From: Wenjunlia vitaminophila DSM 41686
Lineage (GTDB): Bacteria > Actinomycetota > Actinomycetes > Streptomycetales > Streptomycetaceae
Assembly (NCBI RefSeq): GCF_000380165.1
Contig: NZ_KB904675.1
Location: 1-52,363 of the forward strand
Direction of reading: 5' to 3'
Length of the DNA: 52,363 bases
Position numbers and translations under genes: made by a program. This document shows, piece by piece, positions 47,331-50,122 of this stretch. The notes under the pieces are model-generated. The model was not told the origin of the DNA. It saw only the letters and a program-made list of their open reading frames with translations, and did no database searches. The stretch's first letter is position 1, and each line of letters begins with the position of its first letter.

Positions 47331-47445
47331 GGCCGATCACGGTGCTGGCTGCACGGTGCGCTGTCAATACGGTCGCGAGGTCTCCCGTTGTCGGTGGCAT
47401 GGGTCAGAATTGTTGGAGAGCAACCATGAGGATCGAGGGGCACGC

Positions 47446-48138
47446 ATGTCCGGACTCATCGACACCACTGAGATGTATCTCCGCACCATCCTGGAGCTGG
47501 AGGAGGAAGGTGTGGTCCCCATGCGCGCCCGCATCGCGGAGCGGCTCGAGCAGAGCGGCCCCACGGTCAGCCAGACCGTGGCGCGGATGGAGCGCGACGG
47601 CCTGCTGACCGTGGAGGGCGACCGCCACCTGGAGCTCACCGAGGAGGGGCGGCGGCTGGCCACCAGGGTCATGCGCAAGCACCGCCTGGCGGAGTGCCTG
47701 CTGGTGGACGTGATCGGTCTGGAGTGGGAGCAGGTCCACGCGGAGGCGTGCCGCTGGGAGCACGTGATGAGCGAAGCCGTCGAGCGCCGTGTCCTGGAAC
47801 TGCTCCGGCACCCCACCGAGTCGCCCTACGGGAACCCCATCCCCGGCCTCGAGGAGCTGGGCCAGCAGTCCGAGGCGGACCCGTTCCTCGGGGACGGCAT
47901 GGTCAGCCTCGGGGACCTGGCGCCCGGATCGGACGGCAAGAGCGCCGTGGTCCGCCGCATCGGAGAGCCCATCCAGGCCGACGCCCAGCTCATGTACACG
48001 CTGCGCCGCGCCGGGGTGCAGCCGGGCGCCGTGGTGATGGTCACCGAGTCCGCGGGCGGGGTCCTCGTGGGCAGTGGCGGGGAGGCGGCGGAGTTGGCCC
48101 CCGAGGTCGCCTCGCACGTCTTCGTCGCCAAGCGCTGA
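47446..48138 (+). CDS. dmdR1: Iron-dependent repressor, DtxR/IdeR family (DmdR1-type)
   Basis: The product has 230 residues, the length of IdeR. It has an N-terminal winged helix (PMRARIAERLEQSGPTVSQT with the recognition helix, then VEGDRHLELTEEG), a dimerisation and metal-binding domain, and a C-terminal SH3-like FeoA domain (YTLRRAGVQPGAVVMVTE). All DtxR metal ligands occur at their classical numbers: M10, C102, E105, H106 and H79, E83, H98. Fe2+-loaded dimers should bind iron boxes such as the one at 13141 and repress uptake. Confidence 0.96.
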   Translation: MSGLIDTTEMYLRTILELEEEGVVPMRARIAERLEQSGPTVSQTVARMERDGLLTVEGDRHLELTEEGRRLATRVMRKHRLAECLLVDVIGLEWEQVHAEACRWEHVMSEAVERRVLELLRHPTESPYGNPIPGLEELGQQSEADPFLGDGMVSLGDLAPGSDGKSAVVRRIGEPIQADAQLMYTLRRAGVQPGAVVMVTESAGGVLVGSGGEAAELAPEVASHVFVAKR

Positions 48139-48162
48139 GGCCGCCTCGGCCGCCCGGTGCCG

Positions 48163-48195
48163 CCGCGGGCCCGTCGGACACGGACGGGCCCGCGG
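48163..48195 (+). terminator. Terminator after the iron repressor gene
   Basis: CCGCGGGCCCGTC and GACGGGCCCGCGG form a perfect 13-base stem with a 7-base loop, 25 bases after the stop. Confidence 0.85.
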
Positions 48196-48429
48196 GGTGC
48201 GGGCCGACACGCTGGAAGGGCGGGTGCGCCGGGAGGGCGGAGAGCCCTGGGCGCTGCACCGCGCCCCGGGCTACTCCGCCCTCTGCCCCCCTGGTGACAC
48301 CCGGAACCCCGAGCTTTCCGGGTTTCCCCTTTTCGCGGTCCGGCTTCCCCGTCCGGACCCCCTCCCGCTCAAAGACTCCCCTCAGTAACGGCGGGCAACA
48401 CGTGGGCGTTGTCACTCAAACGAGCGTTA

Positions 48430-48503
48430 TTTGGCGCCACCCGGTCTCTTTGGCGCGTGTGTCCCACATGCATCGAAAGCATGTATCGAAAGTGTGTTCG
48501 ATA
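48430..48503. promoter_or_regulatory. Dense repeat block upstream of serine-less hydrolase
   Basis: Within the 432-base gap before the hydrolase gene there are two TTTGGCGC copies 19 bases apart (48430, 48449), two adjacent 13-base tandem units (ATGCATCGAAAGC and ATGTATCGAAAGT, 48468-48493), and an inverted repeat TATCGAA-N6-TTCGATA (48484-48503) that shares the second unit. This looks like a multi-site operator and promoter. The rest of the gap holds the repressor terminator and plain G+C-rich sequence. Confidence 0.6.
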
Positions 48504-48570
48504 GCCTGAGAAGTGTCCGAAGCAGAGCTGACAGGTTGTGCCAGGTGGGGGAGACCCTGGCAGGACGCGG

Positions 48571-49449
48571 ATGGGGGTGCGACACATGGTTCGACAGATC
48601 GACGTCATGGGCGCCGACGGTGTCAGGCTCACCGCCTGGGAGTTCGGCGCGGGACGCGGGGCGACGGACGGTGGGAGGCGTGACCGCCCCGGCCTGCTGC
48701 TCCTGCACGACCTGATGGGCCGGGCCTCCACGTGGGCGGACAACACCGCCCGGTGGCTCGCGCCCCGGTTCCGGACCGTGGCCGTGGACCAGCGCGGCCA
48801 CGGCCACAGCGAGAAGCCCGCGGGCCCCTACGACCGCGGCTCGTACGTCGCCGACGTCGAGGCGGTGGTGGAAGCCCTGGGGCTCGCCCCGGCCGTCCTG
48901 GTGGGCCACGCGATGGGCGGACTGACCGCCTGGCAACTCGCCGCCAGACGCCCCGACCTGGTGCGTGGCCTGGTGGTCAGTGAGACCAAGGCCTCCACGC
49001 TCGGCGAGGACGGGCAGCGGCGCTGGCTCGACTGGTTCAAGAGCTGGCCGCTGCCGTTCGACTCCCTGGACGCGGTGCGCCGCTGGTTCTCCGAGGACGA
49101 CCCCACCCTGGAACGCCCGAGCCCCGGGCGCGGCGACTACTTCGTGGAGGTGATGGAGGAGCGGGCGGACGGCTACTGGCCCGAGTTCTCGTTCGACCAC
49201 ATGATGCTCTCCCTGGAACCCTGGGCCTTCGAGTCGCACTGGGACGACCTGGCCCTGGTCCACTGCCCGACGCTCGTCGTGCGCGGGCTGGACGGTGCGC
49301 TCGGCCGCGCCGAGGCCCAGGAGATGGTCCGCGCGCTGCCGGACGGACACTACGCCGAGGTGCCGGACTGCGGGCACATCGTCCACTGCGAGCGGCCCGA
49401 GGGGTGGCGTCAGGCCGTGGAGCCGTTCCTGGCGGGCCTGGGGCGCTAG
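48571..49449 (+). CDS. Alpha/beta-hydrolase-fold protein lacking the nucleophile serine
   Basis: The product has 292 residues from the ATG at 48571; the ATG at 48586 and GTG at 48538 are alternatives. The fold is clear: LLLLHDLMGRASTW, AVDQRGHGHSEKP, VADVEAVVEALGL. The nucleophile elbow, normally GHSMGG, reads GHAMGG, so the catalytic serine is alanine. The later acid (VVRGLDGALG) and histidine (DCGHIVHCERPEGW) remain. It may be a non-hydrolytic binder or use another chemistry. Confidence 0.9.
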   Translation: MGVRHMVRQIDVMGADGVRLTAWEFGAGRGATDGGRRDRPGLLLLHDLMGRASTWADNTARWLAPRFRTVAVDQRGHGHSEKPAGPYDRGSYVADVEAVVEALGLAPAVLVGHAMGGLTAWQLAARRPDLVRGLVVSETKASTLGEDGQRRWLDWFKSWPLPFDSLDAVRRWFSEDDPTLERPSPGRGDYFVEVMEERADGYWPEFSFDHMMLSLEPWAFESHWDDLALVHCPTLVVRGLDGALGRAEAQEMVRALPDGHYAEVPDCGHIVHCERPEGWRQAVEPFLAGLGR

Positions 49450-49468: not shown

Positions 49469-50122
49469 TCAGCGCGGCCGGGCAGCCGCGGCGTCCCGGC
49501 CGCAGGCGTAGGCCAGCGCGCCGATCAACTCCTCCGCCTCGGGCAGCCAGCGGTTGGCCGGGGTCGGCGGACGGGCCCAGAGCGTCGGGCCCAGGGCGCC
49601 GACCCGCGACGGGGGCGCGACCACGTGGTCACGCTCCCCACGGCCAACGAGGTCAAGTGACCTCGGCGACCAGCCGAGCTGCCGCACCAGCGTCGGGACG
49701 CGGGCGGCCGAACCCGCGAGGACGAAGAACTGCATGCGGCGGCCCGGGGCGCAGGCCACCGGGCCGAGCCGGACCTCGGTGCGCTCCATCCTGGCCAGGG
49801 CGAGGCAACCCGCCGGCTCGGGCACGTCGATCACGTCGAAGGTCCGCCCGGTGGGCAGCAGGATCGAGGCCAGGGGCGTCTGCGACCACATCCGCCGCAC
49901 CGCCGTGGGGCTGCTGCTCGCCTGTTGCGCCCAGTCGGGCTGTAGCGGGTGCGCCCCCGGCGCGGGGCAGTGCGGCGTGCCACACGAGCACTGCGTGTCG
50001 CCGGCGTCCTCCACCAGCCAGGCTCCCGAGCACACGTCCCAGTGACGTTCCCGGGCGTACCGCATCGCCGACTCCAGCAGCGGACCGTCCAGTTGGGCTC
50101 CCATGGTGTCGTCCACACTCAC
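49469..50122 (-). CDS. Prim-pol (bifunctional DNA primase/polymerase N-terminal) domain protein
   Basis: The product has 217 residues from a GTG after GGAAAGG; an ATG lies 18 bases downstream. The prim-pol features are the cysteine-rich insertion CSCGTPHCPAPGAHPLQPDW, TGRTFDVIDVPEPAG with two aspartates at metal-binding positions, and HVVAPPSRVG. No helicase or primase C-terminal domain is attached. Short stand-alone versions are widespread in Streptomyces chromosomes; their role is not known to me. Confidence 0.82.
   Translation of the reverse strand: MSVDDTMGAQLDGPLLESAMRYARERHWDVCSGAWLVEDAGDTQCSCGTPHCPAPGAHPLQPDWAQQASSSPTAVRRMWSQTPLASILLPTGRTFDVIDVPEPAGCLALARMERTEVRLGPVACAPGRRMQFFVLAGSAARVPTLVRQLGWSPRSLDLVGRGERDHVVAPPSRVGALGPTLWARPPTPANRWLPEAEELIGALAYACGRDAAAARPR

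Follow-up and report, generated by a model that had tools for sequence, protein, structure and literature searches.

The alpha/beta-hydrolase fold, its serine-less members and the alternation of serine with alanine at the nucleophile position are known in general. The window, by which we mean the whole analysed stretch of 52,363 nucleotides from Wenjunlia vitaminophila DSM 41686 (source genome of 6.4 Mb in 111 contigs), encodes a protein of this fold in which alanine occupies the nucleophile elbow. This raises the question whether a single strain has lost a catalytic residue, or whether a whole family does its work without one.

Gene start and fold

The reading frame is open to position 49449 and offers in-frame ATG codons at 48571 and, 15 bases further downstream, at 48586. 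The sequence-only reading of this DNA had begun the gene at the first of these, which is probably too far upstream. We prefer the second, because the orthologues align from it and because a GGGGGTG-type ribosome site, present in the relatives inspected, lies between the two ATGs. The features of the locus are collected in Table 1.

Membership in the alpha/beta-hydrolase fold superfamily, claimed by the same reading, is confirmed by Pfam, by AlphaFold and by two structural comparisons. The match of the window protein to PF00561 (Abhydrolase_1) has an E-value of 2.6e-24 and scores 86.7 bits against a cut-off of 25.8, the AlphaFold model has a mean pLDDT of 95.5 and a pTM of 0.93, and VIA-align gave a Z of at least 8 for 1000 of 1000 aligned chains, with 31.7 as the top value. 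Among the NCBIfam models, the cut-off was reached by none of the 25 of 27 that were listed for the window protein. Among named organisms, the nearest found are Streptomyces species, with 57–63% identity, and the genus is represented by one other genome.

Table 1. Features of the locus, in positions of the window
Feature	Position	Strand	Remarks
DtxR-type iron regulator, upstream neighbour	47446..48138	+	NF053665, 380.9 bits
Second upstream element, weak in the window (family consensus GTCACTCGAACGAGGGGTGTTG)	48411..48433	+	
Promoter element, window form ATCGAAAGTGTGTTCGATA (family consensus TTCGAATANNNGTTCGATA)	48485..48503	+	window has 3 mismatches
Probable -10 hexamer TAGCCT	48502..48507	+	overlaps the promoter element
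Coding sequence, alpha/beta-hydrolase-fold protein, 287 aa plus stop	48586..49449	+	orthologue alignment from residue 1, Pfam, AlphaFold
Oxyanion-loop His41-Asp42	48706..48711	+	HG in 179/180 rows, HD in the window only
Nucleophile elbow GHAMGG (GGC CAC GCG ATG GGC GGA)	48904..48921	+	Ala109 codon GCG at 48910-48912
Residue 133, acid after the strand following the elbow, Glu in the window	48982..48984	+	aligned with the Asp of 3kxp
Loop D236-G237-A238 (commonest form D-G-E)	49291..49299	+	D236 is an alternative acid candidate
His264, catalytic-type histidine	49375..49377	+	kept in 177/180 rows (lost in three)
Primase/polymerase-domain protein, convergent downstream neighbour	49469..50122	-	PF09250, 2.1e-23

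The nucleophile across the family and in control hydrolases

A match at E ≤ 1e-40 was found in 293 of 394 genomes, distributed over 9 of the 17 genera of Streptomycetaceae, so the gene is widespread, not universal. In a class-wide profile search, 39 of 394 genomes had a match at E ≤ 1e-70, every one of them from this same bacterial family. The loci compared come from part of the 293 matching genomes, mostly the best-scoring together with a low-scoring set; 197 of 202 loci gave a match, and 180 rows are counted as the family. Omitted from the 180 are a duplicate of the window (L001; the window row itself is counted), two paralogues (L002, L003), two broken or truncated copies (L137, L138), nine Micromonosporaceae-type relatives (L016–L024) and four paralogue rows (L139–L142). 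A few rows of the set are redundant: L010 and L071 apparently represent one genome, and L015 resembles L102. Over part of the frame, the orthologues in L137 and L118 are apparently frameshifted or altered.

The sequence-only reading had described the elbow as GHAMGG with alanine in place of serine, and the codons bear this out. It had also proposed that orthologues be checked for alanine, with serine in close orthologues pointing to a strain-specific mutation or a sequencing error. The nearest relative, at 67% identity, does have serine at the elbow, yet across the 180 rows the position is occupied by serine in 86, alanine in 84 and glycine in 10, and by nothing else. An alternative count over rows with more than 52% identity (175 rows, the window entering twice) gave 85 alanines, 80 serines, 8 glycines and 2 gaps. 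The residues are spread over several codons, with GCC (65) and GCG (19) for alanine, TCC (55), TCG (30) and AGC (1) for serine, and 10 glycine codons. Given this spread and the 94 rows with alanine or glycine, we reject a private mutation or a sequencing error; the window protein is a genuine serine-less member.

Serine is present in all nine Micromonosporaceae-type relatives and in the four paralogue rows. The latter are copies that are 39–44% identical, come from four genomes of this bacterial family, and have the elbow GQSLGG and no adjoining iron-regulator gene.

As a control, searches were made for two paralogues from the window's own genome (61 genomes for each) and for PcaD (81 genomes). 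All control rows have serine (14/14, 11/11 and, for PcaD, 30/30 among the matches listed; 55 rows). Since 10 of the 11 places of the second paralogue set coincide with the first, this corresponds to 45 distinct loci of the same bacterial family, 30 belonging to PcaD and 15 to a single broader family, with serine kept in 45 of 45. The control is small, and its rows are mostly 40–60% identical to their own query, and are thus mutually no closer than the serine-losing family. With 94 of 180 rows lacking serine in the family, as against none of the 45 control loci, the loss of the nucleophile goes beyond chance.

Direction of the changes

The serine was lost many separate times, and nearly in one direction. 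On a FastTree tree of 193 rows, built without the nucleophile column, the observed states need 20 changes, and on a quick IQ-TREE tree of 90 thinned rows they need 21; when branches with support under 95 are collapsed, 14 and 11 changes remain, respectively. Parsimony assigns serine to the root, and outgroup rooting resolves the changes into 13–14 from serine to alanine, 4–5 from serine to glycine, 1–2 from alanine to glycine, and 0–1 from alanine back to serine. In 500 sampled parsimony histories, serine was lost 17.9 times on average and regained at most once; non-serine states occupy 29% of the tree length. Under equal rates, zero regains in 18 changes would have a probability of about 0.002, a figure that weakens with one regain and that counts the outgroup branches in the serine length. 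One of the losses founded a clade of 54 rows, one of which now has glycine.

The catalytic site and the constraint on the protein

Compared with a serine hydrolase, the window protein lacks the nucleophile and has a catalytic-type histidine and what appears from the alignment to be a catalytic-type acid. The sequence-only reading had the Asp and His positions kept. This holds for His264, while the acid aligned with the Asp of 3kxp is a glutamate in the window, at residue 133. Across the family, this residue is Asp in 173 rows and Glu in seven, and is thus acidic in 180 of 180. Six of the seven Glu133 rows lack serine at the nucleophile position, a hint of looser dyad geometry after serine loss. 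The sequence-only reading perhaps meant D236, which would be the alternative acid: a pairwise alignment with PcaD (2xua) sets it against an Asp, with a one-residue gap. Position 236 holds Asp or Glu in 173 of the 180 rows, and position 238 holds Glu in 160 of the 180. The invariably acidic residue 133 and its alignment with the 3kxp Asp weaken the case for an acid in the loop that follows strand 7, be it D236 or residue 238.

The residue after the nucleophile is Met in 172 rows, Thr in 5, Leu in 2 and Val in 1, the LGRAE stretch is invariant in all 180 rows, and the cap residues W154, P155, P157 and F158 are invariant in a 46-row alignment. All 94 non-serine rows have the acid (Asp or Glu), His108 before the nucleophile and the cap Trp154; 92 of them have His264 and 93 the oxyanion Gly42, the window being the exception. 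The window protein also carries a one-residue insertion, Asp52 (48739–48741), which is absent from the other 179 family rows.

Purifying selection on the alanine members is as strong as on the serine members: pairs above 85% identity, which are non-independent, give a median dN/dS of 0.14 when both members have alanine (723 pairs) and of 0.149 when both have serine (206 pairs). Non-serine rows depart from conserved columns less often than serine rows (median 1.0 versus 3.5), although the large alanine clade helps to define the consensus. The window copy departs at 26 of 145 conserved columns, the second highest value of the 180 rows, where the family median is 2. With a short root-to-tip distance (rank 165 of 180) and a sister, L009, that departs at 13 columns, the window copy may owe part of these departures to an early split, not to rapid change. 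As they include Glu133 and Asp42, the window copy itself is perhaps non-catalytic.

Promoter and neighbouring genes

The sequence-only reading had spoken of an elaborate promoter, and the element is indeed conserved: upstream of the start, TTCGAATANNNGTTCGATA is found with at most four mismatches in 179 of the 180 family rows. Base-shuffled upstream regions (one set) gave best matches with 6–8 mismatches in 174 of 180 cases, and the lowest value, 3, occurred once. The last two bases of the element open a conserved TANNNT, in which the first T and the A are found in 178 of 178 sites and the last T in 177 of 178. Upstream of it lies the GTCACTCGAACGAGGGGTGTTG block, and both blocks (48411–48507) are conserved across the family. 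An exact copy of the TTCGAATANNNGTTCGATA element occurs once in each of five other genomes searched. The element resembles the LexA (SOS) box, given as tCGAAC-N4-GNNCGa in PMC9380542, but among 178 sites the sixth base is T in 153 and C in 9, and we do not assign the element to LexA. The window copy reads as a more LexA-like palindrome. The word 'hydrolase' is absent from the main text of PMC9380542.

In 174 of 197 loci the iron regulator lies upstream of the gene in the same orientation; the 197 count 15 relatives and paralogues that lack it. Of the family loci that hold enough DNA, L047, L078, L112 and L136 showed no regulator, and L135 has it on the other strand. Within 3 mismatches of the one consensus used, the window contains no iron box, which leaves control by the neighbouring regulator unsupported. 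The portion of PMC12161575 covered contains nothing on the window gene. In 76 of 197 loci the primase/polymerase gene follows downstream in the opposite orientation, although 194 of 197 hold more than 1.3 kb of downstream DNA, so this neighbour is variable or diverged.

An open frame of 268 codons runs antisense to the iron regulator gene (47404–48210, minus strand). In S. coelicolor, the antisense gene Adm lies opposite dmdR1; open antisense frames are common at such G+C content.

Explanations for an apparently dispensable serine

The serine was lost many times while the rest of the protein was under selection, and the real job of the protein therefore apparently needs no serine. Very probably, the conserved function of the family is serine-independent. 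We consider the chances about even that this is a capped family in which a His264-acid133 dyad works, or anchors a ligand, without an acyl-enzyme step. The capped pocket would bind a small molecule and the dyad would act as general base or hold the ligand in place; without an acyl-enzyme step, serine, alanine and glycine would all be tolerated at the elbow. The cofactor-free quinolone dioxygenases, which share the fold, are described as working in this way. The bias toward serine loss further suggests that any remaining hydrolysis through the serine is of no use or is unwanted. Catalysis by the dyad fits the retained acid and histidine at least as well as sensing does, but several observations count against it: the window has changes at both the acid and the oxyanion loop, and His264 is lost in three of 180 rows; a buried acid and histidine may be kept for structure; free exchange of serine and alanine predicts regains, yet there are 0 to 1, and a stepwise loss of activity would also fit this; and the dioxygenase HOD has a 60-fold higher KM in its S101A variant and carries a histidine (His102) where the family mostly has Met. 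Unlikely in its full detail is a widespread Streptomyces-type, non-hydrolytic dyad enzyme (of the cofactor-free oxygenation, lyase or isomerase type) that would act on a metabolite, sit beside the iron regulator and be driven by its own conserved operator, and whose nucleophile would be a neutral or disfavoured relic, discarded repeatedly.

The signalling or sensor role that the sequence-only reading considered plausible is one of two live readings. Taken as a pure pseudoenzyme, the family would bind a ligand or protein, as sensor or scaffold, with no catalysis in any member, and a serine without a role would drift away. The repeated, near one-way loss of serine under unrelaxed overall constraint, the invariant cap residues and LGRAE stretch, and the altered acid and oxyanion loop of the window copy with its 26 deviant columns are all consistent with this. 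It is not evident, however, why a pure binder would keep an acid in 180 of 180 rows and His264 in 177, and we regard this explanation as doubtful. To our knowledge, no partner or ligand of the family is known. An ordinary serine hydrolase whose dispensable activity has been lost repeatedly, the alanine members being dying enzymes, would account for the serine in the thirteen outgroup and paralogue rows and at the root, as well as for the near absence of regains. It is improbable in view of the equal dN/dS in Ala-Ala and Ser-Ser pairs, the 54-row clade that followed a single loss, the fewer deviations of non-serine rows (from a consensus partly set by the large alanine clade), and the retained promoter and gene position. 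Finally, a His-acid dyad might activate water for residual hydrolysis, with serine merely helping to position the substrate. This shares its anatomy with the dyad reading, and the closest structure, 3kxp, is a hydrolase, but PDB titles show several engineered Ser-to-Ala mutants of related hydrolases; the making of such mutants would imply that alanine normally stops turnover in this fold, and we consider water-mediated hydrolysis highly improbable.

In the open-access literature, we found no description of the family or of its repeated serine loss, and SCO4395, which may be the S. coelicolor orthologue of the window gene, is named in no paper found there. The family is a single syntenic one in which the nucleophile of the fold was lost many times, leaving natural serine, alanine and glycine versions in related species. 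These versions make a nucleophile-free function, and the resulting activity, directly testable by swaps in a model Streptomyces. Calling these genes hydrolases is questionable where serine is lacking, as it is in 94 of the 180 examined.

Comparison with known systems

The best match to the window protein is 3kxp, an E-2-(acetamidomethylene)succinate hydrolase (profile 6.9e-35, Foldseek 2.5e-21), which VIA-align superimposes over 266 residues with an rmsd of 2.6 and the top Z given above. The 3kxp Asp that aligns with residue 133 stands 24 residues after its elbow serine, and the 3kxp His aligns with His264. We take the 3kxp triad to be Ser106, Asp130 and His258, in which Ser106 and Asp130 have this same 24-residue spacing. 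The two proteins differ in that they share 25% identity and that 3kxp has serine at its elbow. The best NCBIfam model is that of PcaD, the 3-oxoadipate enol-lactonase (TIGR02427, 9.1e-30). It is matched at 1e-20 by 43 of 46 members of the window family, but the window protein scores 103.9 bits against a cut-off of 255.85, and PcaD loci keep their serine (30/30) whereas the window family is often without it.

No dioxygenase model is among the listed families matching the window protein, and no quinolone dioxygenase is among the 50 matches listed for each of Foldseek and VIA-align, which excludes nothing. In the part of PMC8961568 covered, no residue signature was found. The likeness to these enzymes lies in the site itself. 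According to the portion of PMC10548524 covered, HOD-type dioxygenases use a His-Asp dyad as the base that deprotonates the substrate, the nucleophile is non-essential, natural alanine members exist, and the S101A exchange in HOD leaves kcat unaffected while KM is 60-fold higher. His102, directly after the nucleophile, is listed among the HOD active-site residues in the corresponding portion of PMC5178339. On the strength of these extracts, the quinolone 2,4-dioxygenases (HOD, QDO, AqdC) and the window family have in common the alpha/beta-hydrolase fold, a dyad of His and acid (the acid at nucleophile +25 in the dioxygenases and +24 in the window family) and, as a sequence pattern, serine or alanine at the elbow in different members. 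They differ in HOD His102, a residue that we assume to be family-defining and that is Met in 172 of the 180 window-family rows. For this reason, our suggestion is that the family may work like the quinolone dioxygenases, not that it is one of them.
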